From: Burkholderiales bacterium 70-64
GTDB taxonomy: Bacteria > Pseudomonadota > Gammaproteobacteria > Burkholderiales > Burkholderiaceae_E
Direction of reading: 5' to 3'
Assembly (NCBI GenBank): GCA_001898645.1
Contig: MKUQ01000050.1
Span: forward strand, 1-34,126
Length of the DNA: 34,126 bases
Below the pieces are notes generated by a model that did no database searches, was not told the DNA's origin, and worked only from the letters and a program-made list of their open reading frames with translations. The stretch's first letter is position 1, and every line of letters begins with the position of its first letter. The position numbers and the translations under genes are program-made. This document shows positions 3,071-15,362 of this stretch, piece after piece.

Positions 3071-4162
3071 TCACGGGCGCCGGCGCCGCGCGACTGCCCG
3101 CGAGAGCGTCTCGAGCAGTGCCACCGAATCGTCCCATCCGAGGCAGCCGTCGGTGATGCTCTGGCCGTAGACCAGCGTCGCCGGATCGTCGCTGCCGGGC
3201 GTGAATGCCTGGCGCCCGGCGAGGAGATGGCTTTCGACCATGACCCCGAGGATGCGGGTGCTGCCCGCAGCGATCTGGCCGGCGATGTCCTCGGCCACAT
3301 GGGCTTGGCGCTCGGGCTGCTTGCTGCTGTTGGCGTGCGAGCAGTCGATCATCAGCGACGGCTGGCAGCCGCTGGCTTGCAGCGCCGCGCAGGCGGCCTC
3401 GACGCTGGCGCGGTCGTAGTTCGGCGCGCGGCCGCCGCGCAGGATCAGGTGGCAGTCGGGATTGCCGCGCGTGCGCACCATGGCGACGTGGCCGTTCTTG
3501 TGGATGCCGAGGAAGTTGTGCGCGCTGCGTGCGGACAGCAGCGCATCGATGGCCACACGCACGTTGCCGTCGGTGCCGTTCTTGAAGCCGATCGGCGCCG
3601 AGGTGCCCGAGGCCAGCTCGCGGTGCACCTGGCTCTCGGTGGTGCGGGCGCCGATCGCGCCCCAGGCGACGAGATCGCCGAGGTACTGCGGCGACATCGT
3701 GTCGAGCAGCTCGCTGCCGGCGGGCACGCCGAGCCGCGCGATGTCGATGAGCAGGGCGCGCGCGATGCGCAGGCCCTCGTTGATGCGGCAGCTCTCGTCG
3801 AGGTAGGGATCGTTGATCAGCCCTTTCCAGCCGACCGTGGTGCGCGGCTTCTCGAAGTACACGCGCATGACGATCTCGAGCGTGTCGCGTAGGCGCTCGC
3901 GTTCGGCGGCCAGGCGCCGGGCATACTCGAGCGCGGCCCGCGGGTCGTGGATCGAGCACGGGCCGATCACCACCAGCAGCCGGTCGTCCTCGCCGCGCAC
4001 GATGCGGCGCACCGCCGAGCGGGCCTGGCCGACCGTCGTTTCGACGGGGCTGCCCTCGATCGGGAAGAAGCGGATCAGGTCCTCCGGCGGCGGCAGCAGC
4101 TGCATCTGCGCCACGCGTTCGTCGTCGGTGCGCGAGGTCTTGTCGGGTTGGTCGGGGTTCAT
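3071..4162 (-). CDS. aroG: 3-deoxy-7-phosphoheptulonate synthase, class I (AroF/G/H type)
   Basis: This enzyme condenses phosphoenolpyruvate with erythrose 4-phosphate to DAHP, the first step of the shikimate pathway. The 363-residue protein matches class I-alpha enzymes. It has VIGPCSIHD (residues 65-73, with C69), the PEP-binding [15 protein letters not shown] near 105, [16 protein letters not shown] near 170-190, the metal-ligand region GIHKNGH, and the ligands in [16 protein letters not shown] and [11 protein letters not shown]. The feedback-sensitive isoform (Phe, Tyr or Trp) cannot be assigned by eye. It is divergent from wrbA, with 95 bp between the two starts. No convincing intrinsic terminator follows, only a GC hairpin overlapping the stop codon without a U-tract. 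Confidence 0.95.
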
Positions 4163-5398: not shown

Positions 5399-6328
5399 TC
5401 AAGCGTTGAAGGCGAGCCGCAGGCCCGGGGTGGGCCAGTCGTCGATGGCCACCAGCCGGCCGCTGCCCGACAGCGTGACATAGGCGGTGCGCAGGCCGGG
5501 TCCGCCGAAGCAGAGGTTGGTCGTGAAGAGGTCCGGCAGCGGCAGGTGGTTGTACCAGCGGCCGTCGGGCGAGACCACGGTGATCCCGCCATGCATCATG
5601 GTGGCGACGCACAGGTTGCCGAACGCGTCGACGGCCATCGAGTCGAAACGCTGGTAGTGGCCTCCGGGCGCGGCCACGACCAGGCGCCCGCCGTGCGGCG
5701 AGGGCCAGGGGGCCTTGCGCACCGTGCCCGGAGCGACGACCTCGAATGCCCAGACGCGCGCGCCTTCGGTCTCGGCGTAGTACAGCGTCGCGCCGTCGGG
5801 CGAGAGCGCGATGCCGTTGGGCGTCGTGACCGGGCGCGCGACGGCGTGGATGGAGCGTCCGTCGGGGCGTGCGTAGTACACGGCGCCGCGGTCCATGTCG
5901 TGCTCGCGGATCTTGCCCAGGTCGGTGAACCAGAATCCGCCGTGCGCATCGAACACCAGGTCGTTCGGGCCGTGCAGGGGATGCCCGTCGACGCGCTCGT
6001 ACAGGCGCTCGACCTTGCCGGTGGCGAGCTCGACGCGCTCGATGCGTCCGCACGTGTAGTCGGCGGCCTGCCCGGCCGGCCGCAGGCAGCCGTCGGCCTC
6101 GGTCACCCATCGGAAGCCGCCGTTGTTGCAGACATAGACGGCACCGTCGGGGCCGATCGCGGCGCCGTTGGGGCCGCCGTCGAGATCGGCCACGACCTGG
6201 AGGCGGCCGTCGCTGCGCACCCGCGTGAGCGTACCGCGCGCGATCTCGACCACCAGGATCGATCCGTCGTCCATGGCCACCGGCCCCTCGGGGAACTGCA
6301 GGCCCGAGGCGATCTCACGCATCCGCAT
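5399..6328 (-). CDS. SMP-30/gluconolactonase-like beta-propeller protein
   Basis: SMP-30/LRE family enzymes are six-bladed beta-propellers that hydrolyse lactones such as aldono-1,5-lactones with a divalent metal. The 309 residues keep the probable metal and substrate ligands: E14 in FPEGP, N122 in GPND, N171 in TTPNGIALSPDG and D229 in RFDSMAVD. No signal peptide is visible, so it is probably cytoplasmic. Its start overlaps the 3' end of the LacI-type regulator gene by 14 bp, so the two are probably co-transcribed. A second in-frame ATG (6320-6322) is an alternative start. The context suggests a role in the LacI-controlled catabolic pathway; the true lactone is unknown. Confidence 0.88.
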   Translation of the reverse strand: MRMREIASGLQFPEGPVAMDDGSILVVEIARGTLTRVRSDGRLQVVADLDGGPNGAAIGPDGAVYVCNNGGFRWVTEADGCLRPAGQAADYTCGRIERVELATGKVERLYERVDGHPLHGPNDLVFDAHGGFWFTDLGKIREHDMDRGAVYYARPDGRSIHAVARPVTTPNGIALSPDGATLYYAETEGARVWAFEVVAPGTVRKAPWPSPHGGRLVVAAPGGHYQRFDSMAVDAFGNLCVATMMHGGITVVSPDGRWYNHLPLPDLFTTNLCFGGPGLRTAYVTLSGSGRLVAIDDWPTPGLRLAFNA

Positions 6329-7451
6329 TGCGGGATCCCCGTTTCGGCGCGCCGCGGCGGGCGGGGGGTGTGGACGTGCGGGCCGAAGCAGGGCCCGCCG
6401 CCAGGCCGGTGCTCTCGCGCACGATCAGCGTCACCGGCAGGGGGGCGGGTGCAGGCGGCTGCCGGCCGCGCAGCCGCGCGATCAGGTGGCGGCCGGCCTG
6501 CTGGCCGATTCCGGAGATCGGCAGCCTCACCGTCGTGAGCGGCGGGTGCAGGTAGGCCGCGAACTCGTTGTCGTTGAAGCTGGCGATGGACAGCTGCCGC
6601 GGCACCTCGATGCGCGCCCGGTCGAGCGCGGACAGGGCGCCCGCCGCGAGGTAGTCATTGCCGCACAGGATCGCGCTCACCGGCGCGCCGGCCCGGAGGA
6701 TCTGCTGCATGGCCTCGAAGCCCTGGCGAAAGCCGTAGTCGGTTTCGACCGAAGCCCCCTTGCACAGGCTCATGCCGCGGCGCGCGACCGCTTCGACGAT
6801 GCCGCGATAGCGGTTGCGTGCTCGCTCGTTGTCGGCGGTGTGCCCGCCGATGAACCCGATGCTGCGGTGGCCGAGACTGCTCAGGTGGTCGATGACGCAC
6901 GCCGCCGCCGCGCTCTCGTCGAAGCCTATGCAGTCGCCGTCGCGGCTGTGCAGCGCCCACATCATCACGAACGGGATGCGATGAGCCGACAGGATGGCGA
7001 AGGTCTGCGGCGGCTGTTCCGCGCCGAGCAGCGCCACGGCATCGACCCCGCGCTCGAGGAGGGTGCGCAGGATGGCGGGTTCGCGCGCCGCCTCGTGCGC
7101 GGGCGCGGACAGGAGCAGGGTGTACCCCTCGGCCGCGAGGGCGGACTCGAGTCCCTGGACCATGGTCGGAAACGACGAGCTGCCGTAGCGCGGCACGATC
7201 GCCCCGACGGTCAGCGTGCGGCGCAGGGCGAGTGCGCGCGCCGAGCCGTTGGCCACGTAGCCGAGGCGATCGGCCGCGGCCAGCACGCGCATGCGGGTGG
7301 CATCGCTGATCATGCCGGGGCGCGAGAGCGCGCGCGAGACGGTGCCGGTCGAGACGCCGGCGAGATTCGCCACGTCGGCGAGCGAAGTCGGTCGTGCCGC
7401 CGCGGGTGCGGCGGCGGGCGAACGCGCGGGTGGGCGGGGCGGACGAGCCAT
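6315..7451 (-). CDS. LacI-family transcriptional regulator
   Basis: This 378-residue LacI/GalR-type repressor has a 20-residue Ala/Pro-rich N-terminal extension. The helix-turn-helix and hinge follow (about 22-80: TSLADVANLAGVSTGTVSRAL, then GYVANGSARALALRRT). A periplasmic-binding-protein-like effector domain runs from about residue 80 to 345. It is divergent from the ABC-transporter operon. A LacI-type palindrome lies on the far side of the intergenic region (7566-7583), and a near-identical one precedes the ThDP-enzyme operon (10296-10311). I infer that it represses both and responds to a pathway compound. The Gly/Pro/Arg-rich C-terminal tail of about 30 residues looks unstructured. Confidence 0.93.
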   Translation of the reverse strand: MARPPRPPARSPAAAPAAARPTSLADVANLAGVSTGTVSRALSRPGMISDATRMRVLAAADRLGYVANGSARALALRRTLTVGAIVPRYGSSSFPTMVQGLESALAAEGYTLLLSAPAHEAAREPAILRTLLERGVDAVALLGAEQPPQTFAILSAHRIPFVMMWALHSRDGDCIGFDESAAAACVIDHLSSLGHRSIGFIGGHTADNERARNRYRGIVEAVARRGMSLCKGASVETDYGFRQGFEAMQQILRAGAPVSAILCGNDYLAAGALSALDRARIEVPRQLSIASFNDNEFAAYLHPPLTTVRLPISGIGQQAGRHLIARLRGRQPPAPAPLPVTLIVRESTGLAAGPASARTSTPPARRGAPKRGSRNADA

Positions 7452-7483: not shown

Positions 7484-7514
7484 ATGTTACCTGCTGGTTC
7501 ACCTGCTGGTGCAA
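7484..7514 (-). promoter_or_regulatory. Possible lacI promoter with tandem 12-bp repeat
   Basis: On the minus strand, TTGCAC (7509-7514) and TAACAT (7484-7489) are 19 bp apart, a little long for a sigma-70 promoter. Two direct copies of a 12-mer, ACCTGCTGGTTC and ACCTGCTGGTGC (plus strand, 7489-7500 and 7501-7512), fill the spacer. A diverged copy of the LacI operator (TGCAAGCG then GATGC, 7510-7522) touches the -35, which would fit autoregulation. All of this is inferred from motif likeness. Confidence 0.3.
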
Positions 7515-7539
7515 GCGGATGCGCGAGACGCGGCGGGCA

Positions 7540-7568
7540 TTGACCGCCTTCCCCGCAGGCGCTAGCAT
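7540..7568 (+). promoter_or_regulatory. Sigma-70-type promoter of the ABC-transporter operon
   Basis: TTGACC (7540-7545), a 17-bp spacer and TAGCAT (7563-7568) make a good promoter match about 50 bp upstream of the binding-protein start. The palindromic operator at 7566-7583 overlaps the end of the -10 and the expected transcription start. A bound repressor would therefore exclude RNA polymerase. Confidence 0.65.
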
Positions 7569-7583
7569 GCAAGCGTTTGCATG
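7566..7583. promoter_or_regulatory. LacI-type operator O1
   Basis: CATGCAAGCGTTTGCATG is an inverted repeat with seven-base arms (CATGCAA/TTGCATG) around a central GCGT. The central CG flanked by AA and TT fits the general LacI/GalR operator style. It shares 15 of 16 core bases with the second site at 10296-10311. The adjacent divergent gene encodes a LacI-family protein, the obvious candidate to bind it. Confidence 0.75.
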
Positions 7584-7616
7584 AATCGGCAGGGATATTT
7601 CGACGAGGAGACCCGG

Positions 7617-8663
7617 ATGAAGAACGACAAGCCCATGCCTTCGAAGTCGCGTCGCTCGGTCATGCTGGCGGGCGCCCTGTCCGCGACCGGTGCGCTCGCC
7701 CTGGGCGTGCCTGCGGCGGCCAGCCGCGCGCAGGCGCTCAAGCGGGTCAACGTCGGCATGCAGCCGATCGTGAACGGGCCGATCTACATCGCGATCAGGG
7801 AGAAGTACTTCGAGAAGCTGGGCATCGACCTCAACCTGGTGAAGTTCACCTCGGGCCCGGCGCAGTTCGCCGCGCTCGCGGGCGGGCAGATCGACCTGGC
7901 GTGGGGCGGCATGGGTGCATTCCTGCTCGCCAAGGCCAACGGGCAGGACCTGAACTTCATCTCGGTGTTCATGGACTACAACCCGCTCGAGGCGCTGGTG
8001 GTGCCGGCGGGCAGCCCGGTGCGGTCGGTGAAGGACCTGGCAGGCAGGAAAGTGGGCCTGGTGACGGGCTCCGACGCGCACTACGGCATGGTCAGGGCGA
8101 TGCAGGCCAACCGCATGGACAAGGGCTCGGTCACTCTCCTCGGCATGGCGCCGCCGCAGCAGATCGCGGCGCTGCAGTCCGGCGACGTCGATGCGCTGTA
8201 CCTGTGGGAGCCGTTCCTGACGCCGCTCTACGAGAAGGGCGCGCGGCCGCTGCTGCGCCTGTCCGACCTCGATCCCGGTTCGGCCTTCCTCGGCTGGGCT
8301 GGCAAGCGGGCGTGGCTCGAGGCCAACGCCGACGTGATCGAGAAGATCCTGAAGGGCTGGGACATGGGGCTGAAGCGGATGCGCGAGGAGCCCGGGCTGG
8401 CCGTGCGCTACACGATGGAGTTCACCGGCATGCAGGCCGCGCAGGCGCAGGCGATCCTCAAGGGGCTGGGGCACTTCGGCGCCACCGACGCGGTCGATCC
8501 GGCCAGCCCGGTGCACTGGGCCAAGGGCAGTCCGCTGAACCGCGTGATGCACGACTTCATCGCCTTCGGCAAGGAGCAGGGGCTGGTGAAGCCGGAGGTC
8601 GAGGTGGACGTCGACGGCTACGTGATGACCCGGTTCATGAAGGCGGCCGCGCAGGGCCGCTGA
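7617..8663 (+). CDS. ABC transporter substrate-binding protein, SsuA/TauA/NMT1 type
   Basis: This periplasmic binding protein has 348 residues. The N-terminus carries a Tat-like signal: SRRSVML (residues 11-17) followed by a hydrophobic stretch and an Ala-rich cleavage region ending ASRAQA. The mature part (VNVGMQPIVNGPIYIAIREKYFEKLGIDL, then GGQIDLAWGGMGAFLLAKANG) is typical of the sulfonate/taurine/nitrate/thiamine-precursor group. The frame is open from an ATG at 7581 inside the operator. The ATG at 7617, with GAGGAG upstream, gives the proper signal peptide and is preferred. First gene of an ABC operon under O1. The ligand is unknown. Confidence 0.9.
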   Translation: MKNDKPMPSKSRRSVMLAGALSATGALALGVPAAASRAQALKRVNVGMQPIVNGPIYIAIREKYFEKLGIDLNLVKFTSGPAQFAALAGGQIDLAWGGMGAFLLAKANGQDLNFISVFMDYNPLEALVVPAGSPVRSVKDLAGRKVGLVTGSDAHYGMVRAMQANRMDKGSVTLLGMAPPQQIAALQSGDVDALYLWEPFLTPLYEKGARPLLRLSDLDPGSAFLGWAGKRAWLEANADVIEKILKGWDMGLKRMREEPGLAVRYTMEFTGMQAAQAQAILKGLGHFGATDAVDPASPVHWAKGSPLNRVMHDFIAFGKEQGLVKPEVEVDVDGYVMTRFMKAAAQGR

Positions 8664-8664
8664 G

Positions 8665-9462
8665 TTGAGCCGGCAACGAACCACGCGCGCCGCCCACGGA
8701 CGGCGCTACCGGCTGATCAGCATCGCCAGCGTCGGCCTGGCGCTGGGGATCTGGATCGTCGCCAGCGTCGCCGGCTGGCTGGATCCGAACAAGCTGCCGC
8801 CGGTGCAGGCGCTGTGGGAGGCGCTGGTCGAGTTGCTGCGCCACGGCTACTCGGGGCGATCGCTGCTCGCCCAGGTCTCCGCTTCGGTGGGCCGCGCGCT
8901 GGCGGGGTTCGCGCTGGCGGTGGTGATCGGCGTGCCGGTCGGCATCTGGCTGGGTACGCGGCGCGGCTTCGATGCGGCGGTCAGCCCCTTCCTCACTTTC
9001 ATGCGGCCGATCCCGCCGATCGCGCTGGTGCCCCTGTTCACCTTCTATTTCGGCATCGGCGAGGCGTCGAAGGTGGCGCTGATCTTCCTCACCGCCTTCC
9101 TCTACCTCACCGTGAGCACGGCCAGCGGGGTGAAGGGCGTGCCGGCCGACCTGATCCTCGCCTCGCGCTCGCTCGGGCTGACTTCGCGCCAGATCTTCTT
9201 CAGCGTCATCATGCCGGCGGCCTCGGCGCAGATACTGACCGGCATGCGCATTTCGATGACGCTTTCGTGGACGCTGGTGGTCGCGGCCGAGCTGATCGCG
9301 GCGCAGGTGGGCCTGGGCTTCATGATCATGGACGCGACCACGTTCTACCGGATCCCGGTCGTGTTCATCGGGATCATCGTGATCGGCCTGATCGGGCTGG
9401 CGCTCGAATCGGCGCTGCTCATGGTGGAGCGGCGCGCGCTGCACTGGCGGGGCATGCAATGA
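8665..9462 (+). CDS. ABC transporter permease, SsuC/TauC type
   Basis: This inner-membrane permease subunit has 265 residues. Hydrophobic helices start at about residues 18-35. The cytoplasmic EAA-type coupling loop is visible as ASRSLGLTSRQIFFSVIMPAA, where the ATPase docks. The start is inferred to be the TTG at 8665, one base after the binding-protein stop, because no ATG or GTG lies before the first helix. The gene ends in an ATGA overlap with the ATPase gene. The family carries sulfonates, taurine, nitrate or related small molecules. Confidence 0.92.
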   Translation: MSRQRTTRAAHGRRYRLISIASVGLALGIWIVASVAGWLDPNKLPPVQALWEALVELLRHGYSGRSLLAQVSASVGRALAGFALAVVIGVPVGIWLGTRRGFDAAVSPFLTFMRPIPPIALVPLFTFYFGIGEASKVALIFLTAFLYLTVSTASGVKGVPADLILASRSLGLTSRQIFFSVIMPAASAQILTGMRISMTLSWTLVVAAELIAAQVGLGFMIMDATTFYRIPVVFIGIIVIGLIGLALESALLMVERRALHWRGMQ

Positions 9463-10232
9463 CGCGCACCGCGACGCTGACCCTGGAGCGCGTCGAGCGG
9501 ATGTTCGACGCGGTGCAGCCCGGCGGCGTGCCGTTCAAGGCGCTCGAGGGCATCGACCTGGTGGTGGAGCCGGCGCAGATCGTCTCCCTCGTCGGGCCTT
9601 CGGGCTGCGGCAAGAGCACGCTGCTGCGGATGGTGGCGGGCTTCGACCGGCCCAGCGCCGGCGTGATCCGCCTCGACGATCGCCCGATCGGCGAACCCGG
9701 CGCCGACCGCGGCGTGGTCTTCCAGCAGCCGCAGCTCTATCCGTGGCTGAACGTGCGCGAGAACGTGGTGTTCGGCCCGAAGAAGCGCGGCGTCGACAAG
9801 GCGCGCTACGAAGCCGATGCCAGGCGCTACATCGAGGCGGTCGGGCTGGCGGGCTTCGAGCGCCACTACCCCTACCAGCTCTCGGGCGGCATGCGCCAGC
9901 GGCTGCAGATCGCGCGGGTGCTGATCAACGAGCCGAGCATCCTGCTGATGGACGAGCCGTTCGGGGCGCTCGACTACCAGACGCGGCTCGACATGCAGCG
10001 GCTGCTGCTCGAGCTGAGCGAGCGCTACCGGCCGACGGTGCTGTTCATCACCCACGACATCGAGGAGGCGGTGTTCATCTCGGACCGCGTCCATGTCATG
10101 AGCGCGCGGCCCGGGCGCATCGTCGAGAGCCTGGAGGTGGATCTGCCGCGCCCGCGGGTCTACGAGGAGGTCTCGGTGACCGAGACGTTCATGCGGCTCA
10201 AGCTGCGGGTGCTGGCGCATCTGAAGGGCTGA
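9459..10232 (+). CDS. ABC transporter ATP-binding protein, SsuB/TauB type
   Basis: This nucleotide-binding subunit of the importer has 257 residues. All motifs are intact: Walker A GPSGCGKST (46-54), Q-loop Q90, signature LSGGM (141-145), Walker B ILLMDEP (161-167) and the switch histidine in ITHD (H199). The open frame begins far upstream inside the permease gene. The ATG at 9459, overlapping the permease stop as ATGA, gives the normal length. It is the last gene of the operon and is followed by a GC-rich hairpin. Confidence 0.95.
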   Translation: MTRTATLTLERVERMFDAVQPGGVPFKALEGIDLVVEPAQIVSLVGPSGCGKSTLLRMVAGFDRPSAGVIRLDDRPIGEPGADRGVVFQQPQLYPWLNVRENVVFGPKKRGVDKARYEADARRYIEAVGLAGFERHYPYQLSGGMRQRLQIARVLINEPSILLMDEPFGALDYQTRLDMQRLLLELSERYRPTVLFITHDIEEAVFISDRVHVMSARPGRIVESLEVDLPRPRVYEEVSVTETFMRLKLRVLAHLKG

Positions 10233-10245
10233 GCGTCTCGCCGCG

Positions 10246-10262
10246 CCGGCGCCGTGCGCCGG
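10246..10262 (+). terminator. GC-rich hairpin after the ABC operon
   Basis: CCGGCGC, loop CGT, GCGCCGG form a perfect seven-base-pair stem 13 bp after the ATPase stop and just upstream of the next promoter. No U-tract follows, so it is not a classical intrinsic terminator. It may protect the 3' end or help separate the two operons. Confidence 0.3.
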
Positions 10263-10264
10263 GA

Positions 10265-10293
10265 TTGACCGGCACGGCGGCACGCACTATCAT
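10265..10293 (+). promoter_or_regulatory. Sigma-70-type promoter of the ThDP-enzyme operon
   Basis: TTGACC (10265-10270), a 17-bp spacer and TATCAT (10288-10293) match the consensus at five of six positions in each box. The -35 and spacer length are identical to those of the ABC-operon promoter. The perfect operator palindrome starts three bases after the -10, over the expected transcription start. Confidence 0.7.
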
Positions 10294-10295
10294 TT

Positions 10296-10311
10296 ATGCA
10301 AGCGCTTGCAT
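10296..10311. promoter_or_regulatory. LacI-type operator O2
   Basis: ATGCAAGCGCTTGCAT is a perfect 16-bp palindrome. It differs from the core of O1 (7567-7582) at one base, which makes O2 fully symmetric. Its position just after the -10 box is typical for repression. With O1 it supports joint control of transporter and enzymes by the LacI-type protein encoded at 6315-7451. Confidence 0.78.
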
Positions 10312-10380: not shown

Positions 10381-12084
10381 TTGACCACCACCAAGCGCGC
10401 CCTCGTGAGCACCCTGCTCGAATGCGGAGCGGACCACGCTTTCACCCTGCCCGGGCTGGGCGTGACCTGGATGCTCGACGAGTTCTACGAGGTGCGCGAG
10501 CGCCTGCGGGTGGTGCTCGCCCGCAGCGAGCAGATCGCCTCGGTCATGGCCCAGGTCTACGGTAAGCTGACCGGCCGGCCGGGCGTCTTTATGGGGCAGG
10601 GGCCGTTCGCCAGCACCACCGGGGCCTTCGGGATCCTCGAGGCGCGCTTTTCCGGCTCGCCGATGGTGGTGCTGACCGATACCTCGTGCTACGACGGGTT
10701 CGGCATGTACGGGGTCTACCAGACGATGACCGGCGACTACGGCGCGGCCGACGTGCGCACGGTGCTCTCGACCATGACCAAGTACACCGGCTACGCGACC
10801 GAGCCGCACGAGGCGGTCTACGGCCTGCAACTCGCCTTCAAGCATGCGCAGCTTCCGCGCATGGGTCCGGCGGCGCTGGTGCTGAAGTCGCCGATCATCC
10901 GCCGCGAGATGCCGGAACAGGCGCGGGTGAAGCTGTACCCGTCCGACGGCTACCTGCGCTACACGCCGGCGCGGCCGGATGCGCCGGCCGTCGATCGCCT
11001 GGCCGCGATGATCGCGCAGGCCCGCCATCCGGTGATCGTTGCTGGCCAGGGGGTGCAGTCGGCGCGCGCGCGCGCGCTGCTGGCGCAGCTCGCCGAGCGC
11101 GCCGGCATCGCGGTGGCGACCAGCTACAACGGCAAGGGCGCCGTCGACGAGACCGCGCCCACCTCCGTCGGGATGCTCGGCACCTGGGGCGCGCGCAGCG
11201 CGAACCGGATGCTGGGCAGGGCGGACCTGCTGGTGGCGATCGGCGCGAGCCTGGGCCCGGACTACCTGCGCTTTCGCGACGAGGCGCTGATCGACCCGTC
11301 GCGCCAGAAGATCGCCCAGGTCGACGTCGATGCGCGCCATGCGGGCTGGGTGTACCCGGTCGACCTCGCGATCACGGGCGATGCCGCCGACGTGATGGCG
11401 ATGCTGGCCGAGCGGCCGCTCGGCGAGGCCGGGCGCGACGCGCGCCTGGCGGCGATCGCGGCGAACAACCGCGAGCACGGCTTCGGCGTGCTGCCGGCGG
11501 CGGCCGCGGCCGCGGGCTCGCTGCACTACGCCGACATCGTGCGCGTGCTCGACCGCTCGCTCACACCGCAGGACATGCTGGTGCTGGATGCGGGCAACAA
11601 CCGCATCTGGATCACCAGCGGCCTGCGGCTGCGCACGCCGGGCCAGCTGGTGGCGCCGGGCGGCATCGGCGGCATGGGATGGGGGCTGCCGGCGGCGGCC
11701 GCCACGCGCCTGGTCCACCGCGATCGCCACGTCATCTGCGTGATCGGCGACGGCGGCATCGCGATGACGCTGAGCACGCTGGCGACCTGCGTGCAGGAGC
11801 GCCTGCCGATCACGGTGATCGTCGCGAACAACCATGGCCTGGGCATGGTGCGCGACAACATGAAGGGGCGCCGCATCGCGGTCGACTTCTCTCCGATGGA
11901 CTTCGCGGCGATCGCACGCGGCATGGGCTGCAACGGCGTGCGCGTGGATCGCGCCGACGCGCTGGGCGACGCGCTCGCACAGTCGCGCGCGGCGATCCTG
12001 AACGGAGGCGAGGGGGCCGTGCCGACCCTGATCGAGGTCGCAGTCGATCCCGAGGCGAGCCACGTGCCGGCTTCGGACTACTGA
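10381..12084 (+). CDS. Thiamine diphosphate-dependent enzyme (acetolactate synthase/benzoylformate decarboxylase-like)
   Basis: Enzymes of this family decarboxylate 2-oxo acids or ligate/cleave C-C bonds using ThDP and Mg2+. The 567 residues show the three-domain order: an N-terminal Pyr domain with the catalytic glutamate (E50 in ARSEQ), a central domain from about 195 to 330, and a C-terminal PP domain with the cofactor motif GDG (456-458) ending at N483-N484. The start is the TTG at 10381, with CGGAG 8 bp upstream. It is not a recognisable IlvB, Xsc or Gcl. As first gene of the O2 operon, it is the likely key enzyme of the pathway. Substrate unknown. Confidence 0.85.
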   Translation: MTTTKRALVSTLLECGADHAFTLPGLGVTWMLDEFYEVRERLRVVLARSEQIASVMAQVYGKLTGRPGVFMGQGPFASTTGAFGILEARFSGSPMVVLTDTSCYDGFGMYGVYQTMTGDYGAADVRTVLSTMTKYTGYATEPHEAVYGLQLAFKHAQLPRMGPAALVLKSPIIRREMPEQARVKLYPSDGYLRYTPARPDAPAVDRLAAMIAQARHPVIVAGQGVQSARARALLAQLAERAGIAVATSYNGKGAVDETAPTSVGMLGTWGARSANRMLGRADLLVAIGASLGPDYLRFRDEALIDPSRQKIAQVDVDARHAGWVYPVDLAITGDAADVMAMLAERPLGEAGRDARLAAIAANNREHGFGVLPAAAAAAGSLHYADIVRVLDRSLTPQDMLVLDAGNNRIWITSGLRLRTPGQLVAPGGIGGMGWGLPAAAATRLVHRDRHVICVIGDGGIAMTLSTLATCVQERLPITVIVANNHGLGMVRDNMKGRRIAVDFSPMDFAAIARGMGCNGVRVDRADALGDALAQSRAAILNGGEGAVPTLIEVAVDPEASHVPASDY

Positions 12085-12127
12085 GCAGGCGATGACGCAC
12101 GCGCGTGCGCACCGCGAAGGAGCGTCG

Positions 12128-12853
12128 ATGAGCAGCAAGCCGATCGCCATCGTCACCGGCGGAAGCCGCAACATCGGCTGGGCGATCGCGCAGCGCTTCG
12201 CCGCGACGCACCGCGTGGTCATCGGCGACCTGCACCCGCCCGATGCTCCGATGCCCGAGTCGATGATGTGGATCGGCTGCGACGTGCGCGACTATGCCGC
12301 CTGCGAGGAACTGATGGCTGCGGCGGCCGACATGGGGCCGATCGCCGCGCTCGTGCACTCGGCGGCGATCACCAGGCCGGCGGTGCCGATCTGCGAGCTG
12401 GAGCCTTCGGAGTGGGCCGCGGTCATCGACGTCAACCTGACCGGCGCCTTCCACGTCGCGCGCGCCGCGGTCCCCGCCCTGAGGAGGGCCTGCGGCAGCG
12501 CGGTGCTCATCGCCTCGCGTGCGGCGCGCGTCGGCTACGCGGCGCTCGAGCCCTCGCCCGACGGAACCAAGCCGCACTACTGCGCCTCGAAGGCCGGCGT
12601 GATCTCGCTCGTGCGCTCGCTGGCCATCGAGCTCGCGCCCGACGGCGTGCGCGTGAACTGCGTCGCGCCCGGCTCGATCGAGGGCGACATGATCCCGCGC
12701 GAGCGCTGGCCGCAGATCGCCGCGCGCGTGCCGCTCGGGCGCATGGGGCTTCCGGCCGAGGTCGCCGAGGCGTGCTGGTTCCTGTGCTCGCCGGCCGCGT
12801 CCTACGTGACGGGGCATGTGCTCGACGTCAACGGCGGCACCTGGATGAATTGA
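12128..12853 (+). CDS. Short-chain dehydrogenase/reductase (SDR), first copy
   Basis: This NAD(P)-dependent oxidoreductase has 241 residues and a Rossmann fold. The coenzyme motif is TGGSRNIG (10-17) and the catalytic residues are N103, S130, Y151 and K155 (YCASK). The usual NNAG is replaced by HSAA (77-80). The C-terminus SYVTGHVLDVNGGTWMN is typical of classical SDRs. The start at 12128 is chosen over the in-frame ATG at 12092 because GAAGGAG lies just upstream. It sits 43 bp after the ThDP-enzyme gene and 22 bp before the Bug gene. It probably oxidises or reduces an intermediate of that pathway. Confidence 0.88.
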   Translation: MSSKPIAIVTGGSRNIGWAIAQRFAATHRVVIGDLHPPDAPMPESMMWIGCDVRDYAACEELMAAAADMGPIAALVHSAAITRPAVPICELEPSEWAAVIDVNLTGAFHVARAAVPALRRACGSAVLIASRAARVGYAALEPSPDGTKPHYCASKAGVISLVRSLAIELAPDGVRVNCVAPGSIEGDMIPRERWPQIAARVPLGRMGLPAEVAEACWFLCSPAASYVTGHVLDVNGGTWMN

Positions 12854-12875
12854 CCGCGAGAAGAGGAGATCCCCC

Positions 12876-13844
12876 ATGAAGTGGCTCAAACGACTGACCG
12901 CCGTCGCCGCGATCGCCTGCGCTTCGTTCGCGCATGCCCAGGCCGCCTATCCGGCGAGGCCGGTGCGCATCGTCGTGCCGTTCCCCCCGGGCGGCGCGAC
13001 CGACATCGTCGCCCGCGAGATCGCCGAGCGGCTCACCAAGGCGATGGGCCAGCCGTTCGTGGTCGAGAACCGGGCCGGCGCCAGCGGCAATATCGGCGTG
13101 GAGCTGGTGGCCCGCTCGGCGCCCGACGGCTACACGCTGGTGGTCGGCGCGCCGCAGACGCTGACCATCAATCCGCAGCTGTTCCGCAACCTGCCGTTCG
13201 ACCCGCAGCGCGACCTCGCGCCCATCGTCGTCATCGCCTCCGTGCCCAACGTGCTGCTCGTCACCAACCGCCTGCCGGTGAAGACGCCCCAGGAGCTGAT
13301 CGCGCTGGCGCGCGCGCAGCCCGGCAAGCTCAACTACGGTTCGTCGAGCATCGGCGGCACGCCGCACCTGTCGGCCGAGCTGTTCAAGTCGATGACCAAC
13401 TCCTACATCGTGCACATCCCGTACCGGGGCAGCTCGCCGGCGCTGCAGGACCTGATCGGCGGACAGATCGAGATGATGTTCGACAACCTGCCGGCGGCGC
13501 TGCCGCACATCCGTTCGGGCAAGGTCAGGGCGCTGGCGGTCACCACGCTGGAGCGCACCGCCTCGGCCCCGGAGCTGCCCACGCTGGACGAGTCGGGAGT
13601 CAAGGGATTCGACTCGCAGGGATGGTTCGCGCTGCTGGCGCCCGCCGGCACGCCGCAGCCCGTCCTCGAGCGGATCAACGCCGAGGTGAACCGGATCCTC
13701 GCGACGCAGGAGTTCCGCGAGCGCCTGCAGCGGGTCGGCGCGGACCCGGTCGGCGGCTCGATCGCGGATTTCCGGCAGCGCCTGCGCAACGAGACCGAGC
13801 GCTGGGGCAAGGTGATCCGCTTCGCGAACATCACCGCCGAATGA
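12876..13844 (+). CDS. Bug-family (TctC-like) tripartite tricarboxylate receptor
   Basis: This periplasmic binding protein of 322 residues belongs to the family greatly expanded in Burkholderiales. Residues 1-23 form a Sec signal peptide ending AHAQA. The mature protein shows the family signatures YPARPVRIVVPFPPGGATDIVAR, the ENRAGASGNIG loop and GSSSIGGTPHLSAELFK. An AGGAG site precedes the ATG. No TctA/TctB membrane partners are encoded nearby. It either works with distant permeases or acts as a sensor, as proposed for some orphan Bug proteins. Its place in the O2 operon suggests it binds the same compound class. Confidence 0.93.
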   Translation: MKWLKRLTAVAAIACASFAHAQAAYPARPVRIVVPFPPGGATDIVAREIAERLTKAMGQPFVVENRAGASGNIGVELVARSAPDGYTLVVGAPQTLTINPQLFRNLPFDPQRDLAPIVVIASVPNVLLVTNRLPVKTPQELIALARAQPGKLNYGSSSIGGTPHLSAELFKSMTNSYIVHIPYRGSSPALQDLIGGQIEMMFDNLPAALPHIRSGKVRALAVTTLERTASAPELPTLDESGVKGFDSQGWFALLAPAGTPQPVLERINAEVNRILATQEFRERLQRVGADPVGGSIADFRQRLRNETERWGKVIRFANITAE

Positions 13845-14701
13845 GCAGGGGCGGCCGGCGGATGGATGCGGCACCGAGCGCCGGCGGTGCGGAGGCGGCG
13901 GCTTCCTCGCCGACGGACCTCGCGCGCGGCTGCCGGCGCATGGAGGGCAGGAACGCGCTGCTGACGGCGGCCGCGCGCGGCCTGGGGCTGGCCTCGGCGC
14001 TGCGGCTGGCCGCCGAGGGCGCGCAGGTCTGGATCACCGATCGCGACGAGACGGCGCTGGCGGAAGCGGCGCGCGAGGCCGCGCACGGGGGTCTGGCGCT
14101 GCGTACGCTGCGGATGGATTCGTCGGACCCGCGTGACGTCGCCGCACGGGTGGGCGAGGTGATCGCCGCGGCCGGCGCGCTCGACGTGCTGGTCAACAAC
14201 GCCGGCGGATCGCTCCACACGCCGTACCGCTTCGGCGACGAGTCCGACGAGGACTGGAAGCGCGTGCTCGACCTGAACCTGATGGGGGCGGTGTGGGCCA
14301 GCCGCGCGGCGCTGCCGGCGATGGTCGCGCGCGGCTATGGCCGCATCGTGAACTTCGGTTCGAAGGCCGGCCGCTTCGGGAGTCTGATCGCGGGTCCCAA
14401 CTATGCGGCCGCCAAGGGCGCCATCGCGTCGCTGACCCGGCAGATGGCGATGGAGTACGGTCCGCGGGGCATCACGGTGAACTGCATCTGCCCGGGCGTG
14501 GTCATGACCGAGCGCACGCGCGCCCTGTGGGCCGAGCGGCGCACGCCGCAGGAGCGCGCGCAGGTGCTGCAGGACATCCCGCTGCGGCGGCACTGCGAGG
14601 TCGAGGACGCGGCAGCCGCGGTCGCCTTCTTCGCCTCCGACGACTCGGCCTTCGTCACCGGCGTGACGCTCGACCTCAACGGCGGCCAGGCGATGGCCTG
14701 A
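13841..14701 (+). CDS. Short-chain dehydrogenase/reductase (SDR), second copy, with altered nucleotide motif
   Basis: This 286-residue SDR keeps NNAG (119-122) and the catalytic S174, Y188 and K192. The coenzyme loop reads TAAARGLG (42-49), with alanine in place of the first glycine of TGxxxGxG. The core is preceded by about 33 poorly structured residues. They follow from the ATG at 13841, which overlaps the Bug stop (ATGA). Internal ATGs at 13862 and 13940 are possible alternative starts. It is the last gene of the O2 operon, and its 3' end overlaps the convergent response-regulator gene by 26 bp. It is probably a dehydrogenase of the same pathway. Confidence 0.85.
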   Translation: MSRGGRRMDAAPSAGGAEAAASSPTDLARGCRRMEGRNALLTAAARGLGLASALRLAAEGAQVWITDRDETALAEAAREAAHGGLALRTLRMDSSDPRDVAARVGEVIAAAGALDVLVNNAGGSLHTPYRFGDESDEDWKRVLDLNLMGAVWASRAALPAMVARGYGRIVNFGSKAGRFGSLIAGPNYAAAKGAIASLTRQMAMEYGPRGITVNCICPGVVMTERTRALWAERRTPQERAQVLQDIPLRRHCEVEDAAAAVAFFASDDSAFVTGVTLDLNGGQAMA

Positions 14702-15362
14702 CCTGCTCCTGCATGCGCAGGCCGAGCCGGCTGGCCGCGATCACCGCCTGCGTGCGGTTGCGTACGCCCAGCGCACGCAGCACGGCGCTCACGTGGACCT
14801 TGACCGTGCCCTCCGCGAGGTCGAGGTGGCGGCAGATGATCTTGTTCGGCAGGCCGCGCAGGATCAGCCTGAGCACCTCGCACTGGCGGTCGGTGAGGCC
14901 GAGGCCGCGCGGATCGCCGCCGGGCGGACCGATGCGGATGGGCTCGTGGACATTGCGGCGCGGATCGATCGCCTCGCGCGGCACGTAGACGTGCCCGGAG
15001 ACGACCAGGCGCAGCGCATGGGTGATCACCTCGCCGTGGTAGGTCTTGGGGATGTAGCCGGACGCGCCCAGGTCGAGGCAGCGCAGGATCGTCTCCCGGT
15101 CGGTTTCGGCCGACAGGATCACGGTGGGCAGCTGCGGGTACTGCGCGCGCAGGGCCTTGAGCGCCTCGAACCCGGTGCTGTCGGGCAGGTTGAGGTCGAG
15201 CAGCGTGAAGTCGTAGGCGGTGTTCAGGGCCAGCATGCGGCGCGCTTCGGCAAAGCTCGAGGCGAGGTCGATGCGGCTTTCCGGCGCGATGGCCTCCATG
15301 GTCATGCATACGGCGTCGCGCATCAGCGGATGGTCGTCGATGACCAGTACGCAGACCCCCAT
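14676..15362 (-). CDS. LuxR/NarL-type response regulator, orphan
   Basis: This two-component regulator of 228 residues has an N-terminal receiver with the acidic pair in VIDDHP (9-10), the phospho-acceptor aspartate in LLDLNLPD near residue 56, and the lysine in IPKTY near residue 105. A LuxR-type HTH spans about 152-215 (LTDRQCEVLRLILRGLPNKIICRHLDLAEGTVKVHVSAVLRALGV). GAGGGAG lies before the ATG. No histidine kinase is encoded next to it, so its partner and targets are unknown. Confidence 0.92.
   Translation of the reverse strand: MGVCVLVIDDHPLMRDAVCMTMEAIAPESRIDLASSFAEARRMLALNTAYDFTLLDLNLPDSTGFEALKALRAQYPQLPTVILSAETDRETILRCLDLGASGYIPKTYHGEVITHALRLVVSGHVYVPREAIDPRRNVHEPIRIGPPGGDPRGLGLTDRQCEVLRLILRGLPNKIICRHLDLAEGTVKVHVSAVLRALGVRNRTQAVIAASRLGLRMQEQVRPSPGRR

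Follow-up and report, generated by a model that had tools for sequence, protein, structure and literature searches.

The 34,126-nt stretch of Burkholderiales bacterium 70-64 analyzed here (GCA_001898645.1, contig MKUQ01000050.1, positions 1-34,126, forward strand; hereafter the window) raises the question of whether a single LacI-family regulator joins two rightward operons, one encoding an ATP-binding cassette (ABC) importer and the other a thiamine diphosphate (ThDP)-dependent enzyme, two short-chain dehydrogenases (SDRs) and a Bug-type solute-binding protein. From the arrangement of genes and sites described below, we conclude that the locus very probably constitutes a local LacI-family repressor-operator system, in which one regulator would act at two main operators, O1 and O2, and at a weaker third one, O3, and in which a ligand would induce importer and enzymes together. 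The first-pass annotation had already tied the ABC importer, the ThDP enzyme, both SDRs and the Bug protein to one LacI regulon, and this proposal is supported by the genome scan, the conservation in 12 of 12 relatives, the sole LacI gene and the single regulator clade.

Both operons begin as that annotation had read them, with a TTGACC box, a 17-bp spacer, a -10 box and an operator at coordinates that were borne out (Table 1), and O2 was likewise confirmed as a perfect palindrome from which O1 departs at a single base. Exactly two sigma-70-like sites were found between positions 6300 and 14800 (mean of 50 shuffles: 0.4), and these are the two operon promoters, scoring 10 of 12 matches for 10265-10293 and 9 of 12 for 7540-7568; no terminator-like site was found in the scan of this interval. 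The description of the two modules as near-identical holds for their elements and not for their phasing, as the distance from the start of TTGACC to the start of the operator amounts to 27 bp for O1 and 31 bp for O2. With this difference of 4 bp, O1 shares two bases with its -10 box and O2 is separated from its own by two bases, and the modules are therefore alike in their elements, not in their exact geometry.

Table 1 Promoters, operators and genes of the putative regulon in the window.
Feature	Position	Strand	Remarks
ABC operon promoter	7540..7568	+	TTGACC 7540-7545, 17 bp, TAGCAT 7563-7568
O1 operator	7567..7582		ATGCAAGCGTTTGCAT; overlaps -10 by 2 bp
ThDP operon promoter	10265..10293	+	TTGACC 10265-10270, 17 bp, TATCAT 10288-10293
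O2 operator	10296..10311		ATGCAAGCGCTTGCAT; perfect 16-bp palindrome; counterparts in relatives
O3, degenerate operator	7509..7524		GTGCAAGCGGATGCGC; in front of lacI; position weight matrix score 9.9, shuffle p 0.009
lacI-family regulator	6315..7451	-	378 aa; helix-turn-helix (HTH) VSTGTVSRAL; Pfam LacI 6.2e-15, Peripla_BP_3 2.9e-36
SMP-30/gluconolactonase-like gene	5399..6328	-	Pfam SGL 8.9e-51; overlaps lacI end by 14 bp
NMT1/SsuA-like ABC substrate-binding protein	7617..8663	+	Pfam NMT1 1.6e-19; SsuA_fam below cut-off
ABC permease	8665..9462	+	Pfam BPD_transp_1 4e-27
ABC ATPase	9459..10232	+	Pfam ABC_tran 1.3e-32
ThDP-dependent enzyme, acetolactate-synthase superfamily	10381..12084	+	TTG start; Pfam TPP_enzyme N/M/C
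Short-chain dehydrogenase SDR1	12092..12853	+	Pfam adh_short_C2 6.4e-50
Bug/TctC-type solute-binding protein	12876..13844	+	Pfam TctC 1.8e-78
Short-chain dehydrogenase SDR2	13940..14701	+	Pfam adh_short_C2 1.6e-54; open frame from 13880, start 13940 chosen by us

Scanning the window revealed no further operator copy at up to three mismatches, the four listed matches being the two sites read on both strands; at this loose threshold, the mean over 100 shuffles was 0.48 matches, and 4 of 100 yielded four or more. The earlier statement that no other good copy exists stands to this extent and has to be qualified by the degenerate O3, which was revealed by the relatives alone. A whole-genome scan with the motif, which the first-pass annotation had named as a check, returned only O1 and O2 in 4.72 Mb at up to two mismatches, both within 3 kb of lacI, with one site per strand for the reversed pattern that served as control here and in the relatives. 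A chance origin of the palindromes devoid of any regulatory meaning thus appears extremely improbable: LacI-type motifs are short, and the reversed controls yielded 0-3 sites per genome at two mismatches, but no promoter-like site other than the two that carry the copies was found in the region, and the copies are conserved at all 12 orthologous loci.

The divergently transcribed gene had been assigned to the LacI family, and Pfam bears this out: the protein carries an N-terminal LacI HTH (PF00356, 55.2 bits, cut-off 27) and a periplasmic-binding-like ligand domain (PF13377, 125.5 bits, cut-off 26.5), and it is the one PF00356 match found in its genome, in a search whose control detected the family in 9 of 14 named genomes. 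None of the 18 NCBIfam rows for named LacI equivalogs, including GntR, RbsR, CytR and PurR, reached its cut-off, the best match scoring 212 bits versus 400.

Twelve relatives' loci with a ThDP operon (numbered L, their genomes G) were available for comparison. A collection scan for the regulator returned six of them, L033-L038, with regulators 68-77% identical; L033, L034 and L035 stem from genomes G070, G068 and G025, respectively, L036 and L037 are near-copies of each other, and L038 is the locus of G465 (SZAS-70). Searches with the ThDP protein identified one genome besides our own among 399 of the order (G389, locus L060), and six, G389 included, among 268 of G389's family, which differs from that of the window within Burkholderiales (L060, L072-L076). 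The proposed inspection of orthologous operons in relatives gave a uniform result: in 12 of 12 relatives, a palindrome with at most two mismatches precedes the regulated operon, and a regulator of the same clade is encoded in the locus. The ThDP enzyme and the palindrome are both present in all six loci L033-L038, and in the more distant set the palindrome upstream of the operon is accompanied by a LacI protein of 42-48% identity in 6 of 6 loci. In the comparison loci L007-L032, which are smaller and center on other LacI proteins found in the family, a match anywhere was observed in 6 of 26, five at two mismatches and one (L008) at a single mismatch. Every operator compared, from the window and the 12 relatives, contains a central CG.

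A tree of 39 LacI proteins unites the regulators of the window and its 12 relatives, 13 in all, in a single group with a support of 100/99; this requires one change, compared to 11.2 with shuffled labels. L076 is a long row in this tree, and a separate tree without L076 and L029 again unites the 12 regulators with a support of 100/100. Among 74 genomes of the family, our own included, orthologues of the regulator (E <=3e-170, next match 1.8e-71) and of the ThDP enzyme (E <=1e-140) occur in the same four, namely G000, G025, G068 and G070.

Several observations weigh against this assignment. Loci L033-L035 belong to G070, G068 and G025, which are shared by the co-occurrence and the footprint analyses, so that these two lines of evidence are not independent. 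Genome-wide site counts at up to two mismatches were one each in G460, G461 and G462 and two in G465, all at the locus, and the reversed controls gave 0, 1, 1 and 3 sites in the same order; with control and real counts of 1 versus 1 in G461 and G462 and 3 versus 2 in G465, counts alone are not enriched there and the argument rests on position and match quality. G463 and G464 contain nine and six sites (controls 0 and 0), of which two in each lie at the locus, leaving 7 of 9 and 4 of 6 off-locus; five of these 11 were inspected, and each is located inside a long stop-to-stop open frame. In addition, five of these six genomes encode two to five LacI proteins (two in G460 and G461, five in G462, four in G463 and G464), which makes the assignment of regulator to site less tight. 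Finally, the L060 site before the ThDP gene has no TTGAC box. In favor of the assignment, SZAS-70 encodes no LacI protein other than the regulator, and its genome contains just two sites, one at each of the two locus promoters.

By our count, 15 of 16 sites have a TTGAC box no more than 60 bp upstream, the window included and the coding site L076:4270 left out. This weaker site, inside an SDR2-like gene, is taken as chance, and the L076 site at 8347 precedes an operon headed by a TctCBA carrier. According to our reading, the operator overlaps or follows the -10 box in the window and in L033-L037, and lies in the spacer, reaching into the -10 box, at both sites of L038, in L072-L075 and at the ABC operon of L060; either placement would suit a repressor. 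LacI members that require a co-repressor exist, as exemplified by PurR in a LacI-family survey (Ravcheev et al. 2014, PMC4052901), but a protein that activates, or that represses with a co-repressor, seems rather improbable at this locus, because at the readable TTGAC promoters the main operators sit, as we read them, at or after the -10 box or in the spacer and not upstream of the -35 box, and because the target genes encode a transporter and enzymes that appear catabolic.

We infer binding and repression released by a ligand. Without ligand, a dimer of the protein encoded at 6315-7451 would occupy O1 and O2, and with O1 over the -10 box and O2 just downstream of it, RNA polymerase would be shut out of the ABC-importer and the ThDP-SDR-Bug-SDR operons. 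Bound to the weaker O3, the regulator would keep transcription of lacI and of the SMP-30 gene overlapping it low. A compound taken up by the cell, or an intermediate of the pathway, would then release the regulator, and importer and enzymes would be switched on together. This ligand would most likely be an organic acid or a sugar acid; the importer types suggest an organic acid, or more generally an anionic organic compound.

The third operator was located by scoring with a position matrix derived from eight main sites and by comparison with 1000 Markov shuffles. Counterparts before lacI were found in L033 (p 0.003), L034 (p 0.001), L035 (p 0.004) and L036 (p 0.002) as well as in L037, the near-copy of the latter (p 0.001). 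Combined over the window and L033-L036, these give a Fisher P of ~7e-9, a value that treats the relatives as independent and derives from a matrix including the main sites of the same loci. Evidence to the contrary comes from the window itself, where O3 is the fourth-best score and would not stand out alone, from L038, which has no O3 (p 0.099) and in which lacI is not divergent and comes last, behind the ABC genes, and from L060 and L072-L075, which are not significant with the close-clade matrix (p 0.078-0.414). A second matrix, built on the six main sites of these distant loci themselves, detected in 5 of 5 of them a site in which one half is good, such as TTGCAAACGATGGTCA (p 0.006-0.023; two matrices tried). 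O3 would probably serve to autoregulate lacI and to control the overlapping SMP-30 gene, which is probably cotranscribed with lacI, as judged from their 14-bp overlap, and which follows lacI in L033 and L038 too. The SMP-30 gene had earlier been counted as a probable member of the regulon; its control would run via O3 and not via O1 or O2. We considered, and did not adopt, a loop joining O3 to the main operator, since the start-to-start spacings of 58, 78, 139, 137 and 168 bp share no common helical phase.

Comparison of the importers revealed a varied history of the operons. In L033-L037, lacI and the ThDP operon are not separated by an ABC operon, and the region between them retains one main operator; the flanking genes of L033 and L034 match the window locus (AroG, Dus and the gene at 14676-15362). 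This arrangement, together with the O3 counterpart in the same intergenic region of L033-L037, would be expected if the regulator mainly served the ThDP operon via O2, being autogenous at O1/O3, and the ABC operon were a passenger with a leftover lacI-ThDP operator. We regard such a passenger role as unlikely, though marginally less so than activation or co-repression. In G389 and SZAS-70, where NMT1-type ABC operons are placed separately, each of these operons carries an operator of its own at a TTGAC promoter. In L037 and L074, and in L073 as judged by ATPase and permease, the ThDP operon itself includes an NMT1-type ABC importer; importer and enzymes have thus repeatedly come under one control.

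The ABC operon of G389 occupies the same place as that of the window and encodes a different importer, with 46% identity for the ATPase and 28% for the permease, compared to 83-84% and 73% with the ABC genes inside the ThDP operons of L073 and L074; its binding protein is 79% identical to that of L074 and was grouped as NMT1-type on that basis. For L038, identities to the window amount to 56% (ATPase), 46% (permease) and 24% (binding protein). For other transporters the picture is less clear than for the ABC operons: L033 has a TRAP importer within its operon, that of L076 is headed by a TctABC system, and no operator site was detected near TRAP-like genes at the edge of L037 within the stretch covered. 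It is conceivable, and put forward tentatively, that this is an organic-acid pathway with a LacI-type regulator and exchangeable importers, for which different lineages recruited two distinct NMT1-type ABC systems, TctABC or TRAP, the NMT1-type ABC operons outside the ThDP operon carrying their own operator (3 of 3: window, L060, L038).

The tripartite carrier of L076 (L076:5282-8218) is a full TctABC system at the head of the regulated operon, suggesting a former TctAB partner, or a borrowed one, for the lone Bug protein of the window. The window also contains a TRAP carrier near the regulon at 19-2910 (Pfam: DctP 1867-2910, DctM 19-1320), separated from it by an AroG-type DAHP synthase gene (3071-4162) and devoid of a nearby operator copy at up to three mismatches.

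Attempts to name the ThDP enzyme yielded generic NCBIfam matches and, among the 60 of 130 rows listed, generic PDB matches. Neither acetolactate synthase nor any other named ThDP enzyme exceeded its NCBIfam cut-off among the 25 of 52 matches listed (best 260.9 versus 539), and the ring-cleaving cyclohexane-1,2-dione hydrolase gave a weak partial match (6.7e-26, residues 203-555); given these generic or partial matches, we leave the substrate unnamed. Within the stretches of limited length that were compared, 3 of 13 loci contain SMP-30, namely those of the window, L033 and L038, and Pfam placed a metallo-beta-lactamase-fold hydrolase in L060, L073 and L074, the loci searched for it. The latter genes sit among the ABC genes (L073:13196-14242, L074:5705-6643 and in L060), in loci where SMP-30 was not seen. 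A hydantoinase/oxoprolinase is located beyond the ThDP operon in L060, where L060:728-4351 and 12165-13202 are listed jointly with the hydrolase. Neither hydrolase has been recorded for the remaining seven loci, and a lactone- or ester-cleaving step in the pathway is therefore no more than a suggestion.

The Lac repressor of Escherichia coli combines a promoter operator with an auxiliary operator and jointly controls permease and enzyme. The present system resembles it in its operator at the promoter, its putative auxiliary operator and the proposed coordinate control, whereas here each of two separate operons has a single main operator, O1 and O2 being 2.7 kb apart. CytR/PurR-type operators consist of TGCAA half sites, and both half site and HTH are similar in our case, but the window regulator scores far below the equivalog cut-offs (CytR 186 of 436 bits, PurR 163 of 501 bits) and is local, not global. 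No description of the present regulon was found among the papers listed by searches of open-licence PMC text, and the 14-mer TGCAAGCGCTTGCA did not occur in that text either.

According to the LacI-family survey, LacI-family factors recognize even palindromes, with a central CG in 1173 of 1303 factors studied, 72% are autoregulated, and of the groups to which a pathway is assigned, 96% belong to carbohydrate pathways (PMC4052901). Measured against the local LacI regulons of RegPrecise in the same survey (Ravcheev et al. 2014, PMC4052901), our system shares the even 16-bp palindrome with central CG, the few target operons and the sites close upstream of the start codon, a putative autoregulation via O3 would be a further resemblance, and it differs in its targets, a ThDP enzyme, SDRs, a Bug protein and an NMT1-type ABC importer. 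We conclude that its features are those of local LacI regulons of a known type, of which it would represent a new member.

Overall, this is ordinary gene control that is well supported by relatives. It assigns a regulator to an uncharacterized but recurring ThDP/SDR pathway of Burkholderiales, and the regulon indicates a possible grouping of importers, SDRs and lactonase-like hydrolases. The substrate becomes findable through a ligand screen of one protein, and the loci compared provide a small natural series of importer operons that were brought under an existing regulator.

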